Assembly (NCBI GenBank): GCA_013001285.1
Contig: JABDMU010000026.1
Span: forward strand, 1 to 53,775
DNA: 53,775 nucleotides
Source of the DNA: Flavobacteriaceae bacterium
GTDB lineage: Bacteria > Bacteroidota > Bacteroidia > Flavobacteriales > Flavobacteriaceae
Direction of reading: 5' to 3'
The notes under the pieces are model-generated. The model was not told the DNA's origin. It worked only from the letters and a program-made list of their open reading frames with translations, and ran no database searches. Positions 30,536 through 40,210 of this stretch are shown in pieces; position 1 is the first letter of the stretch; every line of letters begins with the position of its first letter. The position numbers were made by a program, and so were the translations under genes.

Positions 30536-30563
30536 AAAAGGCTCGCTGCGGCGAGCCTTTTTT
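30536..30563 (+). terminator. Bidirectional intrinsic terminator between convergent genes
   Basis: A perfect seven-base-pair GC-rich stem GGCTCGC / GCGAGCC with loop TGCG is flanked by AAAA on the left and TTTTTT on the right. It can end both the exported-protein gene (plus) and the aromatic operon (minus). It overlaps the last codon of the DAHP synthase gene by two bases. Confidence 0.88.
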
Positions 30564-31644
30564 AATGATTGATTATTTCTTCTTGATGATTAATCGATTC
30601 CTGATGGATGGCCTTGAAAACTCGTAAAATAAATTCTTCACTTAGATTTTTTTCTTCACCCTGAAGAATCATTTTGCCAAGGATCTCATTCCATCGTTTT
30701 GTTTGTAAAACGGCAACGTTATGTTCCTTTTTAAGTGTTCCAATATCATCTGCTACAGTCATGCGTTTTCCCATCATTTCAATTAGTTGATGATCAATGA
30801 CATCAATTTGTGTTCGCAGTGTATTTATTCGGTTTCTAAATTCAGCCGTAGCATCAGTTTCCTTTCTTATCTTAAGGTCATCCATGAATTGAATTAACGT
30901 ACTCGGTGTAATTTGTTGTGCTGCATCACTCCAAGCATTGTCAGGATCAAAATGGGTTTCCACCATAAGTCCGTCATAATTAAGATCTAATCCCGTTTGA
31001 CACAGATCGAAAATAATATCACGTCTCCCAGCAATATGTGAAGGGTCTAAAATTAATGGTAAATCTGGAAAGCGATTTTGCAGATCAATTGGCAATTGCC
31101 ATTCTGGATTGTTACGATATCTTGTTTTTTCATAAGTCGAAAAACCTCGATGAATCACACCAAGATTCTTGATTCCGGCAGTATAAAATCGCTCAACAGC
31201 GCCTAACCACAATGACAGATCAGGGTTTACTGGATTTTTTATGAGTACAGGCTTATCGGTTCCTTCAAGTGCATCTGCAATTTCTTGAACAATAAACGGA
31301 CTCACAGTAGTTCTTGCGCCAATCCAAAGAATATCGACGTCGTGTTCCAGAGCTAAATCAACATGATTCGCGTTCGCTACTTCAGTTGTGATCAGCATTC
31401 CAGTTTCTTCCTTTGCTTTTTGCAACCATTTTAATCCGAGTGCACCTACGCCTTCAAAATTTCCTGGACGTGTTCTTGGCTTCCAGATACCTGCTCTTAG
31501 GACAGTAGCATCACTATCTTTTAATTGATGTGCGATTTTAAGCACCTGTTCTTCTGTTTCTGCACTACATGGTCCGGCAATTACTAGTGGATGTTCTAAT
31601 CCAAAATTATCTAACCATGTTCTTAGTTCCTTTTTGTTTTCCAT
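30562..31644 (-). CDS. Bifunctional DAHP synthase / chorismate mutase
   Basis: A 360-residue fusion. The N-terminal part (about 1-260) is a type I-beta 3-deoxy-7-phosphoheptulonate synthase, the entry step of the shikimate pathway: VIAGPCSAE, LRAGIWKPRTRPGNFEG, TEVANANHVDLAL, GARTTVSPF, KNPVNPD and DPSHIAGRRD. The C-terminal part (about 265-350) is an AroQ-class chorismate mutase helix bundle (RNRINTLRTQIDVIDHQLIE, then KRMTVADDIGTLK). In Porphyromonas gingivalis the same C-terminal fusion makes the synthase sensitive to prephenate, so similar feedback is likely here. It is the last gene of the aromatic operon. Confidence 0.93.
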   Translation of the reverse strand: MENKKELRTWLDNFGLEHPLVIAGPCSAETEEQVLKIAHQLKDSDATVLRAGIWKPRTRPGNFEGVGALGLKWLQKAKEETGMLITTEVANANHVDLALEHDVDILWIGARTTVSPFIVQEIADALEGTDKPVLIKNPVNPDLSLWLGAVERFYTAGIKNLGVIHRGFSTYEKTRYRNNPEWQLPIDLQNRFPDLPLILDPSHIAGRRDIIFDLCQTGLDLNYDGLMVETHFDPDNAWSDAAQQITPSTLIQFMDDLKIRKETDATAEFRNRINTLRTQIDVIDHQLIEMMGKRMTVADDIGTLKKEHNVAVLQTKRWNEILGKMILQGEEKNLSEEFILRVFKAIHQESINHQEEIINH

Positions 31645-31654
31645 TTCAATTTAT

Positions 31655-32506
31655 TTATACTATTCCTTCTAAAATTTGTTTTATGTGATTTGTGTCTTCC
31701 ATCTCCTTATAAATACCTTCAAAATCGCTATTTTCCATTAATGCCTTGAAATGCTTCAAGTTGTTGATATATTCTTCCAGAGTTTCAATGACATTGGTCT
31801 TATTTTGCTTGAAAATTGGTGTCCACATATCTGGTGAACTTTTTGCCAAACGCACTGTACTTTCAAATCCACTTCCTGCCATATCAAAAATATCGCGTTC
31901 ATTTTTTTCTTTTTCTATAACGGTTTTACCTAACATAAATGAACTTATATGTGAAAGATGAGAAACATATGCAATATGCTTATCATGCGATTTAGGCTTC
32001 ATGTATCGAATACGCATGCCTAGATCAGAAAATAATTTCAAGGCTTTTTCCTGAAGCTTAAATGCGGTTTCTTCAACATCACAAATAATTATGGTCTTCC
32101 CATTGAAAAGTCCGTGCAAAGCCGATTCTGGACCGGAAAATTCAGTACCTGCGATAGGATGAGAAGCTAAAAAATTTCGGCGTTTAGGATGATCTTTAAC
32201 CTTGAGACAAATATCCTCTTTGGTCGATCCTGCATCAATAACAATAGTATCGTCTGATACACGATCTAAGATCTCAGGTAATTGCCGAACCGTTGCATCC
32301 ACTGGAATGGCAATTATGACCATATCAGCATTTACAATAGTTTCTAATGTAGCTTTCTGATCAATAAGGTTTAGTTGAAGCGCTTTCGACAAATGTTCAT
32401 CATTATGATCAATGCCGAAAAGCGTTGCTTTAGGATAAATTGCTTTTATGTCTAAAGCAAAACTACCTCCAATTAACCCTACGCCTATGATATATATATT
32501 CTTCAT
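31655..32506 (-). CDS. tyrA: Prephenate dehydrogenase
   Basis: A 283-residue NAD(P)-dependent oxidative decarboxylase that turns prephenate into 4-hydroxyphenylpyruvate for tyrosine. The Rossmann motif is at the N-terminus (IIGVGLIGGSFALDIK). Substrate-site segments include IDAGSTKEDI, SHPIAGTEFSGPE, HIAYVSHLSHISSFML and FDMAGSGFESTVRLA. No ACT or chorismate mutase domain is attached. The gap to the aminotransferase gene is 3 bases and to the DAHPS-CM gene 10. Confidence 0.92.
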   Translation of the reverse strand: MKNIYIIGVGLIGGSFALDIKAIYPKATLFGIDHNDEHLSKALQLNLIDQKATLETIVNADMVIIAIPVDATVRQLPEILDRVSDDTIVIDAGSTKEDICLKVKDHPKRRNFLASHPIAGTEFSGPESALHGLFNGKTIIICDVEETAFKLQEKALKLFSDLGMRIRYMKPKSHDKHIAYVSHLSHISSFMLGKTVIEKEKNERDIFDMAGSGFESTVRLAKSSPDMWTPIFKQNKTNVIETLEEYINNLKHFKALMENSDFEGIYKEMEDTNHIKQILEGIV

Positions 32507-32509
32507 ATG

Positions 32510-33655
32510 TTATTTAATTCTTGCAATAGCCTCTTCAATATCTTCGGTGGAAGCACATAGGGAAAACCTCACATATCCTTCGCCATTACTGCCAAAAATA
32601 TGTCCAGGAGCAATAAAAATGTGATAATTTTTTAAAATGACCTCTATAAATTCTTCCGATTTAAAATAATCTGGAAGTTTCGCCCAAACAAATAGACCAG
32701 AAGCTTCCTCATCGAAAGTGCAATTCAATGCCGTTGCTAATTTCCAGATCAATTTTCGACGTTGATCATAAACACTGTTCAAACTTAAATACCAGAGGTC
32801 TGAGCATCGAAGCGCCTCAATGGCTCCCTTTTGAATTCCATAAAACATGCCGGAATCCATGTTGCTTTTTACTTTCAAAATATTATCGATATGCTTAGAA
32901 TGACCAAGCACCATTCCTACACGCCAACCTGCCATATTAAAGGTCTTGCTCAATGAATTAAGTTCCAGACAATCATCTTTAGCACCGTTAACTTTTAGAA
33001 TGCTCTTAGGAGCGTCATTCAAGATAAAACTGTACGGATTATCATTAACTAGTAAAATGTCATTTCGTTTTGCAAAGGCTACAAGCTCACCAAGTTCTTT
33101 ATAGTCTGCACGAGCACCAGTGGGCATATGCGGATAGCTTATCCACATTAATTTCACCTTGGACAAATCTGATTTTTCCAAAGTCATGATATCGGGCAAC
33201 CAATTACCCTCTTCTTTCAAATCATAATAAATAGGCCTTGCATGTAATAGTTTGGCAACAGCGCCATAGGTTGGATAGCCCGGATTGGGAACAAGAACAG
33301 CATCACCTGGATTTAAATAAGCCATTGATATATGCATAATACCTTCTTTACTTCCCATTAATGGAAGTACTTCGGTCTTCGGGCTCATACTAACTTGAAA
33401 ATGTTCTTTATAAAAGTTGGTCATGGCTTCTCTAAGTTCAGGCAAGCCTTGATAACTCTGATATTTATGTGTGTTTGGAGCGTTTAAACTTGCTGTAAGT
33501 GCTGAAATTACTTTCTGAGGAGGTTGAAGATCAGGACTACCAATACCAAGGTTAATTATTGGATTACCACTAGCGATCAATAAATTGACCTCTCTTAATT
33601 TTTTCGAGAAATAGTATTCTTCAACAGTCTGCAGTCTTTTCGCTCCTTCAATCAT
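32510..33655 (-). CDS. Class I/II aminotransferase, probably for aromatic amino acids
   Basis: A 381-residue PLP enzyme of fold type I. The PLP lysine is in LNSLSKTFNMAGWRVGM. Other elements are NLGIGSPDLQPP, LPLMGSKEGIMHISMAYLNP, NPGYPTYGAVAKLL and NDNPYSFI. Position between pheA and tyrA suggests it transaminates phenylpyruvate and 4-hydroxyphenylpyruvate (or prephenate). The sequence alone would also fit an aspartate- or diaminopimelate-type aminotransferase. Its start overlaps pheA by 4 bases. Confidence 0.85.
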   Translation of the reverse strand: MIEGAKRLQTVEEYYFSKKLREVNLLIASGNPIINLGIGSPDLQPPQKVISALTASLNAPNTHKYQSYQGLPELREAMTNFYKEHFQVSMSPKTEVLPLMGSKEGIMHISMAYLNPGDAVLVPNPGYPTYGAVAKLLHARPIYYDLKEEGNWLPDIMTLEKSDLSKVKLMWISYPHMPTGARADYKELGELVAFAKRNDILLVNDNPYSFILNDAPKSILKVNGAKDDCLELNSLSKTFNMAGWRVGMVLGHSKHIDNILKVKSNMDSGMFYGIQKGAIEALRCSDLWYLSLNSVYDQRRKLIWKLATALNCTFDEEASGLFVWAKLPDYFKSEEFIEVILKNYHIFIAPGHIFGSNGEGYVRFSLCASTEDIEEAIARIK

Positions 33656-34479
33656 AACTTGGCATTTTTATATTCTCCCAACACTTTAAAATCATTGGCC
33701 ATAATTTTTAAAATTGATTTGGCTTTTTTGAAATCTTCAAAGTTTTCAAAAGTTACATCTACAAAGAACGCATAAAACCACGGTGTTTCAATTTTTGGAA
33801 GAGATTGTATTTTGGTCAAATTAAGTTTACAATCGCTCATCACGTTCAGTACCGTTGCAAGACTGCCGCGTTTTGAAGACAGTTCAAACTTAACTGACGC
33901 TTTATTGATTTGTGCTTCTGGTATTTCATGATTCTCACGCTTTACAATGACAAATCGTGTTTCATTGTGTTTAATGGTTTGTATGCTTTCTGCTAAAACA
34001 TCTAAATTAAATAATTTAGCGGCAGCAATACTTGCAATAGCAGCAACCCCTTTAATTTGATCATTAAATATTCTTTGAGCAACTTCAGCAGTATCTTTAT
34101 CTTCCACTAATTTAATATGCGGATGTTTCTTTAAAAACTCCTTGCATTGCAACAATGCCATAGGATGCGACCAGACTTCTTTAATTTCTGCAGTTGATTG
34201 TCCCGCTAAGGCCATAAGATTATGCTGAATATCCAAGTAATGTTCACCTACAATATGCAATTTATGATTATCAACCAGCGCATAATTAGGGATAATTGAA
34301 CCCGCAATTGAGTTCTCAATGGCCATGATCACAGCATCGCATTTCTTTGTGATCAAGCTATCCACAGCCGAGTCAAATGATAAACACTCCAATACATCAA
34401 TAGTATCATCAAAATAATTTTGAGACACAATATGATGGAAAGAACCCTTAACACCTTGTATTGCAACCGATCGTATCAT
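33652..34479 (-). CDS. pheA: Prephenate dehydratase
   Basis: A 275-residue enzyme producing phenylpyruvate from prephenate, with a C-terminal ACT domain for phenylalanine feedback. N-terminal motifs are AIQGVKGSFHHIVSQNYF, AIENSIAGSIIPNYALV and the catalytic-region NETRFVIVKRE. The ACT domain shows KRGSLATVLNVMSDCKLNLTKIQS, matching the regulatory motif of P-protein family members. It has no fused chorismate mutase, which here sits on the DAHP synthase. It is the first enzyme gene of the operon, and its ATG lies three bases after the T-run of a terminator-like hairpin. Confidence 0.94.
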   Translation of the reverse strand: MIRSVAIQGVKGSFHHIVSQNYFDDTIDVLECLSFDSAVDSLITKKCDAVIMAIENSIAGSIIPNYALVDNHKLHIVGEHYLDIQHNLMALAGQSTAEIKEVWSHPMALLQCKEFLKKHPHIKLVEDKDTAEVAQRIFNDQIKGVAAIASIAAAKLFNLDVLAESIQTIKHNETRFVIVKRENHEIPEAQINKASVKFELSSKRGSLATVLNVMSDCKLNLTKIQSLPKIETPWFYAFFVDVTFENFEDFKKAKSILKIMANDFKVLGEYKNAKL

Positions 34480-34482
34480 TCT

Positions 34483-34512
34483 AAAAAAAAAGCCTCGATA
34501 TTATCGAGACTT
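34483..34512 (-). terminator. Attenuator terminator immediately before pheA
   Basis: On the minus strand a nine-base-pair stem AAGTCTCGA / TCGAGGCTT (one G-U pair) with loop TAATA leads into nine T. It ends three bases before the pheA start, so it stands in front of the whole aromatic operon. The left arm can instead pair with CGAGGCTT (34545-34552) at the end of the leader ORF, forming an eight-base-pair antiterminator. Confidence 0.8.
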
Positions 34513-34542
34513 GTTTGAATTTATAAGTATTAACTATACATA

Positions 34543-34620
34543 TTAAGCCTCGGTCTTTTTCGTAAAAAAGAAATAAAACCAGTTATAATATGTATTCGTA
34601 ATTGTTTTCATTTTGTTCAT
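34543..34620 (-). CDS. Aromatic leader peptide of the pheA-operon attenuator
   Basis: A 25-codon ORF on the minus strand, from an ATG at 34620 to a TAA at 34543, beginning MNKMKTITNT. Residues 11-19 are YYNWFYFFF, giving four Phe, three Tyr and one Trp in nine codons. It ends TKKTEA. Such a run is extremely unlikely by chance ahead of Phe/Tyr synthesis genes. A ribosome stalled at the Phe codons would leave the final GAGGCT free to form the antiterminator, while one reaching the stop would mask it and let the terminator fold. There is no Shine-Dalgarno sequence, as is usual in this group. Confidence 0.82.
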   Translation of the reverse strand: MNKMKTITNTYYNWFYFFFTKKTEA

Positions 34621-34628
34621 TAACTCAG

Positions 34629-34657
34629 CTAATGTAAATAATATTTTCACAATTCAA
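34629..34657 (-). promoter_or_regulatory. Possible promoter of the aromatic operon
   Basis: On the minus strand TTG, an 18-base spacer and TACATTAG (one mismatch to TAnnTTTG) are positioned so that transcription would begin just before the leader-peptide ATG. Confidence 0.35.
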
Positions 34658-34714: not shown

Positions 34715-34746
34715 TTGAACTTTAATTTATTTAATGTTTATTTTTG
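34715..34746 (+). promoter_or_regulatory. Consensus promoter for gldA
   Basis: TTG, a 21-base spacer and TATTTTTG match both Bacteroidota promoter elements. The -7 box overlaps an upstream in-frame ATG (34734), which argues that gldA starts at 34764, about ten bases after the predicted transcription start. Confidence 0.65.
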
Positions 34747-34763
34747 ATCAAACTGAAGAAAAT

Positions 34764-35666
34764 ATGTCAATAAAGGTTGAACAGATCACAAAACGCTATG
34801 GCGAACAAAAGGCATTGAACGCGGTGTCGTTTGAAGTTTCTAAACCAGAAGTTGTTGGGTTCTTAGGTCCGAATGGCGCAGGAAAATCAACCATGATGAA
34901 AATACTAACAACCTATTTGGATGCCACTGAAGGTAAGGCTTCTGTTAACGGATTTGACGTTCAGTCTGAGTCTCAAAAAGTACAATATAGTGTTGGTTAC
35001 CTCCCAGAGCACAATCCCTTGTATTTAGATATGTATGTGCGTGAATACCTCGGTTTTAACAGCAAAATATATCAGGTTGATCAAGCAAGAATTGAAGAGG
35101 TCATTGCGCTTACTGGCTTAGAACCTGAAGCACATAAAAACATTGGACAGCTATCAAAAGGATATAGACAACGTGTTGGACTAGCATGTGCGTTATTGCA
35201 TGATCCCGATGTCCTGATCTTAGATGAGCCAACTACTGGACTAGATCCTAATCAGTTGGCAGAAATCAGACAATTGATAAAAGAACTTGGTGCTGAGAAA
35301 ACGGTTTTTCTTTCAACACACATCATGCAAGAGGTTGAAGCCATGTGTGATCGAGTGATCATTATAAATAAGGGTGAAATCGTGGCAGATGAAAAATTAA
35401 AAGCCCTTCGATCAAATCAAGAGCAAACTGTCATTGTTGAATTTGATTATCGCGTTGAAGATGCTTTTTTAAACCAATTGCCGAAAGTTAAATCGGTTGT
35501 GAATACTCATGATTTTGTTTATGAGATCACTTTCGATTCACAGGATGATATGCGCTCTTATGTTTTCGATTTCGCTCACGATAACGAATTGAAAATACTT
35601 CAGCTTAATCAGAAAAATGCAAGTTTAGAAAGTTTATTTAGAAGCCTCACTACAGGTCAGTCCTGA
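34764..35666 (+). CDS. gldA: Gliding motility ABC transporter ATP-binding protein GldA
   Basis: A 300-residue ATPase subunit of the GldA-GldF-GldG transporter needed for gliding in flavobacteria. Motifs are Walker A GPNGAGKST (residues 35-43), the signature LSKGYRQRVGLA, Walker B VLILDEPTTGLDP and the H-loop FLSTHIMQEVE. A C-terminal regulatory extension of about 80 residues follows. The start MSIKVEQITKRYGEQKALNA agrees with the family and with the promoter position. gldF and gldG are not in the window. Its last 10 bases overlap the convergent DUF2807 gene. Confidence 0.9.
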   Translation: MSIKVEQITKRYGEQKALNAVSFEVSKPEVVGFLGPNGAGKSTMMKILTTYLDATEGKASVNGFDVQSESQKVQYSVGYLPEHNPLYLDMYVREYLGFNSKIYQVDQARIEEVIALTGLEPEAHKNIGQLSKGYRQRVGLACALLHDPDVLILDEPTTGLDPNQLAEIRQLIKELGAEKTVFLSTHIMQEVEAMCDRVIIINKGEIVADEKLKALRSNQEQTVIVEFDYRVEDAFLNQLPKVKSVVNTHDFVYEITFDSQDDMRSYVFDFAHDNELKILQLNQKNASLESLFRSLTTGQS

Positions 35667-38647: not shown

Positions 38648-39940
38648 TTATGACAAAACCGTTTTTTTTACAACAGTAAAGGCTGCTTTTAAATCGGCTT
38701 TCAGGTCATCAATATTCTCTATCCCAACCGATAAACGAATGAGGTCTTTTGTAACGCCAGTTGTTTCCTGTGCTTCATCGCTTAGTTGCTGATGTGTTGT
38801 GCTTGCTGGATGAATGATCAAAGATTTTGTGTCGCCAATATTAGCAAGCAACGAGAACAATTTAGTTGTATCTGCAATAGTTTTAGCAGAATCAAAACCT
38901 CCTTGAACACCAAAAGTTACGATACCACTTTGTCCATTTGGTAAGTATTTTTCTGATAATTTCTTATACTCACTTGTTTCAAGTCCTGGATAGTTGACCC
39001 ATTTCACTTCAGGTTGTTCTTGCAGCCATTTCGCCAATTCCAGGGCATTTTGACTATGTTTCGTTATGCGCAATTCAAGAGTTTCTAAGCCTTGAATAAT
39101 TTGCCATGCATTAAAAGGACTTAAGGCTCCGCCGTAATCACGTAAACCCTCAATTCTTACTTTGGCAATAAAAGCTGCTGCTTCCAATACTTCACTATAC
39201 ACCAAACCGTGATATCCTTGGGAAGGCTCAGTAAACTCTGGGAATTTACCATTAGACCAATCAAAAGTGCCTGCATCAATAATCACACCTCCTAATGCTG
39301 TTCCGTTGCCATTGATGTATTTCGTTAATGAATGTATGACGATATTGGCGCCATATTCAATTGGATTCAACAGATAGGGTGTAGCCACCGTATTGTCTAC
39401 AATCAGTGGGACTTTATAAGTTTTCGCTTCATTGGAAATTGCTTCAATATCCAGAACATCCAATTTAGGATTTCCTAAAGATTCAATAAAGAACGCTCGT
39501 GTATTTTCTTTCGCAGCTTCCTTAAAGTTTTTAGGATTTGAAGGATCTACAAATGTGGTAGTGATACCATGTCTAGGCAAGGTCACACTCAACAAATTAT
39601 AGGTACCTCCATACAAGCTATTTGAGGCAACAATATGGTCTCCAGCTTTTAACAAGGTTAGCAAGCTAGTAGCAATTGCTGATGTACCAGAAGCCGTAAC
39701 AACGGCTGCAATACCTCCTTCTAATGCTGCTAAACGCTGCTCCAGAATGTCATTCGTTGGATTGTTGATTCTTGTGTAAATGTTGCCCGTTTCAGCCAAA
39801 GCAAATAAATTGGCTGCATGATCAGAATCATTAAAAACATAAGCTGTTGATTGATAAATTGGAACTGCTCTGGTTCCACCATTGGACTTAACATCATGTC
39901 CAGCATGCAATGCTTTGGTTGCAAATTTTTGTGTACTCAT
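38648..39940 (-). CDS. metY: O-acetylhomoserine aminocarboxypropyltransferase (sulfhydrylase)
   Basis: A 430-residue Cys/Met-metabolism PLP enzyme (MetY/Met17 type) that makes homocysteine from O-acetylhomoserine and sulfide. Motifs are PIYQSTAYVF, YTRINNPTNDILEQRLAALE, the PLP-site Asp region VPLIVDNTVATPYLL, the PLP lysine in HSLTKYINGNGTALGG and the C-terminal ANIGDTKSLIIHPASTTHQQ. The last element and the length distinguish it from cystathionine gamma-synthase. It is the first gene behind the SAM-I riboswitch, with metX next. Confidence 0.93.
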   Translation of the reverse strand: MSTQKFATKALHAGHDVKSNGGTRAVPIYQSTAYVFNDSDHAANLFALAETGNIYTRINNPTNDILEQRLAALEGGIAAVVTASGTSAIATSLLTLLKAGDHIVASNSLYGGTYNLLSVTLPRHGITTTFVDPSNPKNFKEAAKENTRAFFIESLGNPKLDVLDIEAISNEAKTYKVPLIVDNTVATPYLLNPIEYGANIVIHSLTKYINGNGTALGGVIIDAGTFDWSNGKFPEFTEPSQGYHGLVYSEVLEAAAFIAKVRIEGLRDYGGALSPFNAWQIIQGLETLELRITKHSQNALELAKWLQEQPEVKWVNYPGLETSEYKKLSEKYLPNGQSGIVTFGVQGGFDSAKTIADTTKLFSLLANIGDTKSLIIHPASTTHQQLSDEAQETTGVTKDLIRLSVGIENIDDLKADLKAAFTVVKKTVLS

Positions 39941-40058: not shown

Positions 40059-40061
40059 TTG

Positions 40062-40180
40062 GTTATCTATCCGAAATAGTGAGGAATAATTCACTTTTCA
40101 AGTAGAATTTAGCACCTTCTTAATTGCTTAAGGGTTGCTAAGGCTTCACAGGGTCTATTCCCTCCGCCTTTCTTGATAAC
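40062..40180 (-). ncRNA. SAM-I (S-box) riboswitch controlling metY-metX
   Basis: The 344-base gap before metY holds a canonical SAM-I aptamer on the minus strand. P1 is closed by GTTATC (40175-40180) and GATAAC (40062-40067). It contains the characteristic core AAAGGCGGAGGGA, GACCCTGTGAAGCCTT and AGCAACC. The P3 arm is CTTAA/TTAAG, followed by AAGGTGCTAAATTC and a P4 arm near 40075-40100. It should repress methionine synthesis when S-adenosylmethionine is abundant. Confidence 0.93.
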
Positions 40181-40210
40181 ATCTCAATAAGATTTTGAAC
40201 TTTGTTAAAA

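Follow-up and report, generated by a model that had tools for sequence, protein, structure and literature searches.

A probable ribosome-mediated transcription attenuator with an aromatic leader peptide before the pheA operon of Flavobacteriaceae

The pheL-pheA attenuator of E. coli combines a Phe-rich leader peptide encoded before pheA with a four-region pairing logic and an intrinsic terminator, while the ilvGMEDA and thr leaders of the same organism are multivalent, i.e., they carry codons for several end products of a branched pathway. A comparative survey of attenuation is said to have been made by Lopatovskaya et al. in 2010, and earlier attenuator predictions for Bacteroidetes may exist there. 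For Bacteroidota, the accessible part of a 2021 transcriptome study of F. psychrophilum (PMC9723704) reports strong clues to leader-peptide attenuation ahead of amino acid operons, and describes structured 5′ elements at pheA and hisG that are conserved in other Flavobacteriaceae and had no Rfam hit. Short ORFs reminiscent of leader peptides were described in Bacteroides (available part of PMC7366714), and the phylum is reported, in the portions available of PMC6847099 and PMC9976891, to be largely without Shine-Dalgarno-led initiation. The available sections of PMC4833913, PMC1262725, PMC8305728, PMC2965389, and PMC5613140 contained nothing on Bacteroidota attenuators, and we found no mechanistic study of such an attenuator in this phylum in the literature searched, which mostly did not cover subscription papers. 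A preliminary description of the DNA studied here had stated that no experimentally studied example was known in Flavobacteriia; this stands as far as mechanistic tests are concerned, none of which was seen, but it has to make room for the RNA-seq clues from F. psychrophilum (PMC9723704, as accessible).

We analyzed a stretch of 53,775 nt from a Flavobacteriaceae bacterium (hereafter, the window), where an aromatic amino acid operon on the minus strand runs in the order pheA (prephenate dehydratase, the first structural gene; 33652..34479; PF00800, E 1.2e-54), a class I/II aminotransferase gene (32510..33655; PF00155), tyrA (prephenate dehydrogenase; 31655..32506; PF02153 and PF20463), and a gene for DAHP synthase with a C-terminal chorismate mutase (CM) (30562..31644; PF00793 + PF01817). 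The leader, also on the minus strand, lies between pheA and a divergent ABC transporter gene (34734..35666, plus strand), which, because of that divergence, the leader terminator is unable to serve. With pheL-pheA (RF01859), the locus shares the Phe-rich leader, the four regions, the intrinsic terminator, and the target enzyme. It differs in that the flavobacterial leaders are also frequent in Tyr (a mean of 3.56 Tyr codons per leader, compared to 5.32 Phe) and often contain one Trp, that the operon also includes tyrA and DAHP synthase/CM, and that no Shine-Dalgarno sequence was seen. As in the ilvGMEDA and thr leaders, codons for more than one end product of a branched pathway stand in a single leader, but here the end products are aromatic amino acids and the third one (Trp) is optional and placed away from the last codons. 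The likeness to the F. psychrophilum elements lies in a conserved pheA 5′ element, a proposal of attenuation, and the lack of an Rfam hit; the main text of that study, as far as accessible, gives neither a peptide nor arms nor a phylogenetic test, and stops short of expressly calling the pheA element an attenuator (PMC9723704). When searched with Rfam, the window leader reached 24.3 bits (E 0.044) for Phe_leader (RF01859), against a gathering cut-off of 55, and had no match at cut-off to a T-box or any other Rfam riboswitch. Elsewhere in the same window, a SAM riboswitch (RF00162, 73.9 bits; 40060-40182, minus strand) lies upstream of a gene (38648-39940, minus strand) that appears, by sequence reading only, to encode a PLP-dependent sulfhydrylase-like protein.

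The preliminary description had reported a 25-codon ORF, an aromatic cluster, pairing arms, and a terminator before pheA, and all of these were found in place on the minus strand. Read from the ATG at 34620 to the TAA at 34543, the leader ORF (MNKMKTITNTYYNWFYFFFTKKTEA) has 25 codons and carries 4 Phe, 3 Tyr, and 1 Trp codons within nine positions. These control codons, TAT TAT AAC TGG TTT TAT TTC TTT TTT (YYNWFYFFF; 34564..34590), are conserved in the family, and the last Phe codon occupies 34566-34564. The in-frame ATG at 34611, which would yield the ORF MKTITNTYYNWFYFFFTKKTEA of 22 codons plus stop (34543..34611), is the likelier start, since it has an A at -3 and at -6 and lies 17 nt from a -7 element, as in many relatives. 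Among the 124 family leaders described below, 15, including that of the window, have a second in-frame ATG upstream, and in 109 the chosen ATG is the sole in-frame ATG within 60 nt upstream; the leader detector favors the most downstream ATG. Upstream of the ORF we find a probable promoter (34629..34657, minus strand), with a putative -33-like TTG at 34657-34655, a spacing of 18 nt, and the -7 element TACATTAG at 34636-34629, a reading that follows the Bacteroidetes promoter consensus; transcription would then start near 34622, about 11 nt 5′ of the leader ATG. Of the 124 leaders, 116 have a TAnnTTwG element no more than 70 nt before the leader ATG (65 of them at a distance of 16-19 nt), compared to 14 of 124 in mononucleotide shuffles. 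The start context was A-rich and of a non-Shine-Dalgarno type: of the leaders counted, 77% had A at -3 and 60% had it at -6. A at these two positions is reported, in the accessible part of PMC6847099, as a positive determinant of translation in F. johnsoniae.

The terminator AAGTCTCGAT(AAT)ATCGAGGCTT spans 34512-34490 and consists of a left arm (region 3, AAGTCTCGAT, 34503..34512) and a right arm (region 4, ATCGAGGCTT, 34490..34499, with conserved 3:4 pairing), followed by a tract of seven T (34483..34489), all on the minus strand. For the stretch 34520-34485, the folding energy is -11.6 kcal/mol (z -6.19; 0/200 shuffles as good), and the stem ends 10 nt from the pheA start codon (window 34479-34490). 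Region 2, CGAGGCTT (34545..34552, minus strand), lies in the last codons of the leader ORF and is the candidate antiterminator arm: its start lies 11 nt beyond the last Phe codon, and, allowing one G-T pair, it complements AAGTCTCG, the first eight bases of region 3 (34512-34505). Region 1, ATACATATTA (34586..34595, minus strand), lies within the Asn-Thr-Tyr-Tyr codons and folds with TAATATGTAT (34536..34545, minus strand), which spans the leader stop codon, into a 10-bp 1:2 hairpin that joins the Tyr codons to the stop-codon region; region 2 sits within this hairpin or overlaps its 3′ arm by one base. The earlier suggestion that the mechanism needs no separate pause hairpin did not survive for this locus, given this hairpin (34595-34586/34545-34536) and the both-side changes in the corresponding helix of A1, our alignment of the window's clade (46 sequences). 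From its sequence, the window locus is a complete predicted 1:2 / 2:3 / 3:4 attenuator.

Conservation was assessed in 149 family genomes, an even sample of a larger group; 130 of them had PheA, and the window's genome alone represented its genus among the genomes searched. Upstream regions of up to 400 nt were taken for all 130 loci, with contig ends limiting two of them (128 nt in L002, 382 nt in L110). When a leader was defined as an ORF with at least six aromatic codons in nine, accompanied by an intrinsic terminator before pheA, 123 of the 130 loci possessed one, whereas none of the 130 reverse complements and none of the 390 dinucleotide shuffles did (the aromatic ORF alone occurred in 5/130 and 7/390 of these controls). 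This bears out the expectation that a short Phe/Tyr-rich ORF would be conserved upstream of pheA in Flavobacteriaceae. One further locus, L114, falls short of the threshold of six with 5/9 aromatic codons and is scored as a miss there; it is included in the 124 loci with leader and terminator that are used in the further leader counts. No leader was detected at the other six (L002, L043, L084, L101, L110, and L119): L002 is cut by the contig end, yet has cluster, arms, and terminator; L043 has a covariance-model match 515 nt upstream of pheA, outside the 400 nt examined; L084 has a terminator at -344; and L101, L110 (382 nt upstream), and L119 had no leader in the upstream region examined. In a second set of GTDB species genomes, which partly overlapped the first and of which 44 of 80 carried species names (Algibacter, Tamlana, Psychroserpens, Gelidibacter, and others), leader plus terminator were present in 79 of 80 loci, the single miss being a locus cut by a contig end. 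With an E limit of 0.01, a covariance model built on A1 gave matches in 46 of 60 family genomes, and 44 of its 53 matches lay immediately before pheA, which covers 44 of the 51 PheA-bearing genomes. The window's own genome had one match (E 2.8e-14). Nine matches were located elsewhere, of which eight were weak (E at least 0.002); the ninth, at G047:C240:8625-8754, was a second strong match (E 5.3e-15) in a genome with 6% contamination, and is perhaps a contaminant or a second pheA leader. These counts confirm the leader-plus-terminator observation and put it well beyond what chance would give.

At 123 of 124 loci, the end of the leader has a helix-forming match to the left terminator arm; the median strength was -12.95, compared to -7.2 for shuffled sequences, and 100 of the 124 loci had at most 5/100 shuffles as good. 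Across the 124 loci, the 2:3 pairing of a locus with its own partner averaged -12.6, whereas partners swapped between loci averaged -9.1 (the most negative of 30 swap means being -9.6) and shuffled ones -7.3. This is the fair version of the own-versus-swapped test, and it supports the earlier proposal of a ribosome-mediated attenuator whose antiterminator arm is the end of the leader ORF. Picking the register as the best helix biases the alternative figure, 95.7% own pairing versus 87.8% on average for swapped partners, and the same upward bias applies to the one middle 2:3 position, where we counted T-A in 68, C-G in 52, T-G in 3, and C-A in none.

Within clades, the helices behaved differently in A1 and in A2, the alignment of a second clade (23 sequences). 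For 3:4, 99.6% of the cells were paired in the 46 sequences of A1, with one both-side change (reached by 7/500 shuffles), and A2 had three pairs with both-side changes (reached by 0/500). In the 1:2 helix of A1, 88.4% of cells were paired; three pairs had both-side changes (41/500 shuffles reach this), these changes occupied 8 cells (0/500), and pairing fell to 18-64% when the partner was slid. A2 has a different 1:2 helix, of the CTGGAACGG:CTGTTCTAG type, where 87.9% of cells were paired and both-side changes affected three pairs (123/500) and 8 cells (6/500). A simple family-wide search found a 1:2 helix with at most 5/100 shuffles as good at 42 of 124 loci, where about 7 are expected; since this search was weak, we claim the helix for the window's clade and A2 only. 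For 2:3, A1 was nearly invariant, without any both-side change and with no excess of pairing (85.3% paired versus a shuffled mean of 86.0%), and A2 showed one pair with a both-side change, which 198/500 shuffles reach. Compensatory changes, which had been suggested as a check for all three arms, were thus obtained for 1:2 and 3:4 in both clades but hardly for 2:3, and the presumed 2:3 coupling rests on the comparison across clades, where relatedness inflates counts.

The spacing would fit a stalled ribosome. Region 2 started a median of 11 nt after the last aromatic codon in 123 leaders, the same distance as from the last Phe codon in the window, in agreement with the stall spacing that had been proposed; it began at least 9 nt past that codon in 115/123 and ended no more than 9 nt past the stop codon in 122/123, while region 3 never started less than 9 nt beyond the leader stop (124 of 124). 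We folded the RNAs with ViennaRNA, assuming that a ribosome covers 9 nt past its A-site codon. For the window RNA before region 4 has emerged, the modeled probability of 2:3 was 0.04 without a ribosome, where region 2 was instead paired upstream (mean probability 0.46), and rose to 0.98 once a ribosome stood at the last Phe codon; a ribosome at the stop codon gave a modeled 3:4 probability of 0.95. Among family RNAs modeled at the same stage, 2:3 exceeded 0.5 in 114 of 123 stalled and in 80 of 123 free states, and was higher in the stalled than in the free state in 112 of 123. The default in the absence of a ribosome may therefore differ between lineages. At full-length equilibrium, the model preferred 3:4 even with a stalled ribosome (0.95 in the window, median 0.94), and the switch must therefore be kinetic, i.e., decided during transcription.

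From the ORF, the codon cluster, the arms, the spacing, the promoter-like element, and the conservation, as seen by sequence and comparison, we infer how stalling, ribosome-polymerase coupling, termination efficiency, and the amino acids sensed in vivo would combine. Transcription would begin about 11 nt before the leader ATG. With charged Phe and Tyr tRNAs plentiful, the ribosome would get to the stop codon and cover region 2, upon which 3:4 would pair and RNA polymerase would stop after about 140 nt. If Phe or Tyr were short, the ribosome would stall in the YYNWFYFFF cluster and break up region 1, leaving region 2 free to pair with the emerging region 3, so that no terminator would form and pheA, the aminotransferase gene, tyrA, and the DAHP synthase/CM gene would be transcribed. 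In an untranslated leader, the 1:2 hairpin would hold region 2 off region 3, making termination the probable default in the window's genome. What marks an attenuator of this class was thus found in predicted form: an ORF with end-product codons and an apparent intrinsic terminator, an antiterminator that a stall would free and that would exclude the terminator, and a putative 1:2 protector or pause hairpin (in the window fold and in the A1 and A2 clades). We put the probability that the pheA leader acts as a classical ribosome-mediated transcription attenuator at about 0.9.

The same leader and arms might instead act at the level of translation, where the 3:4 hairpin would mainly block pheA translation by hiding the initiation region and termination would be minor. 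The short distance between the window stem and the pheA ATG would suit such a scheme, as would the 26 of 124 family loci with a distance of at most 11 nt, but over the family this distance ranges from 5 to 135 nt, which would generally not be tolerable for a start-codon hairpin. A T tract moreover follows the stem in 124 of 124 loci, although the detector requires a T tract, so that this is no independent test and the six leaderless loci stand apart. We hold a mainly translational role to be very improbable; under transcription attenuation, the 3:4 hairpin may, at 10 nt from the start, additionally hamper pheA translation.

It is harder still to see the leader as an RNA element that is read by a protein or a small molecule in the manner of a riboswitch, with an incidental short ORF, even if its nucleotides are strongly conserved and no Rfam family reached its cut-off in it. 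The last nine cluster codons of the 124 leaders (1116 codons) contain 520 TTT/TTC versus 1 TTA/TTG, which therefore is a coding signal beyond T-richness. Phe and Tyr are freely interchanged among family leaders, region 2 is read in all three frames, and the codon type tracks the pathway, with His at hisG and Trp at trpE; together, these observations leave a riboswitch-like element scarcely credible. The use of all three frames likewise speaks against a small, functional hydrophobic peptide as the product of the ORF, with the terminator as a separate feature. The conserved aromatic core would agree with such a peptide, but downstream of the core the residues change from clade to clade together with region 2 (ETLYV, TGLL, VRVVL, and others), and we consider this the faintest of prospects. 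Ribosome-mediated transcription attenuation thus remains our preferred reading.

The claim that one leader senses all three aromatic amino acids was borne out in part. A Trp codon is present in 84 of 124 leaders (one in 83, two in 1), but it is missing from 40, and among the last four control codons Phe and Tyr account for 477 of 496 and Trp for only 1 of 496. Counted from the last aromatic codon, most Trp codons sit at offsets -4 to -6, -8, and -10. A ribosome stalled at Trp could still free region 2, and sensing of Trp is therefore possible, yet no defining feature of the leader. As Trp is optional and upstream, and trpE has a leader of its own with WWW, we regard the sensing of all three as only partly supported.

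The genome of the window itself has this trpE leader with WWW (L315) as well as a hisG leader with HHHH (L278), and in the family a Trp-rich leader with terminator was present at 29 of 30 trpE loci taken, and a His-rich one with terminator at 29 of 30 hisG loci taken. The trpE leader L315 (G000:C72), MKINLNNTWWWLSRNLNFVN, has three Trp codons and the terminator AAGGCTTGTC(ATTCAC)GACAAGCCTT. Among the trpE loci (L290-L319), a leader TCGTGA (TTGTGA in one) was complementary to the terminator loop plus the first bases of the 3′ arm, with TCACGA or TCGCGA as its target, in 28 of 29; this match had at most 10/100 shuffles as good in 27 of 29, as compared to 1 of 29 for the left arm alone. The antiterminator geometry at trpE may thus differ from that at pheA and capture the terminator loop and the start of the 3′ arm. 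The hisG leader L278 (G000:C24), MTFIQLHHHHFHICLQAK, is likewise accompanied by a terminator, and region 2 of the hisG set (L260-L289) was mostly of the TCAAGCG- or TCAGGCG-type, pairing with the left arm of the terminator.

Outside the family, 118 genomes had a PheA match and 80 loci were examined, 20 of which had leader plus terminator, 18 of these with a 2:3 match that at most 10/200 shuffles equaled. The 20 loci span 11 families (f2, f3, f9, f13, f15, f17, f18, f19, f22, f28, and f31). No leader plus terminator was found in f5, f12, f23-f27, f29, f30, f33, f35, f37, f38, and f40-f43 (1 to 8 loci each), and eight loci in leader-negative families or in f2 and f9 had an aromatic ORF without a detected terminator. 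In f16, of the same order, seven genomes of ~0.6 Mb (L225-L227, L229, L230, L232, and L235) keep pheA with no leader plus terminator, as expected if reduced endosymbiont-like genomes, a status suggested by their size, lose regulation; L226 among them has an aromatic TTG-start ORF without a terminator. Two loci in the phylum but outside the class, L248 (G284) and L251 (G237), have a PheA 42% identical to the query together with an aromatic leader and terminator, in families where a leader was present in 1/6 and 1/2 loci examined; their 2:3 match fails the shuffle test, and a transfer of the operon together with its leader is possible. We entertain, at somewhat less than even odds, the broader notion that the pheA leader is an ancestral multivalent sensor of Bacteroidia (for Phe, Tyr, and mostly one Trp) with Shine-Dalgarno-free starts, which together with the hisG and trpE leaders would imply close coupling of polymerase and ribosome.

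Overall, the pheA leader appears as a well-supported attenuator of a familiar type, with a solid comparative case from which its function is deduced. The pathway-specific leaders suggest that phe, his, and trp operons are commonly attenuator-controlled in Flavobacteriaceae, and the combination of leader ORF, arms, and terminator provides a rule to find attenuators that were missed here by Rfam models. If attenuation works without a Shine-Dalgarno sequence, the first ribosome must closely trail the polymerase, and the pheA leader would therefore be a ready-made assay of transcription-translation coupling for this phylum. Very probably, the window's organism and its relatives switch on the synthesis of aromatic amino acids once a lack of Phe or Tyr stalls their ribosomes, much like E. 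coli does.
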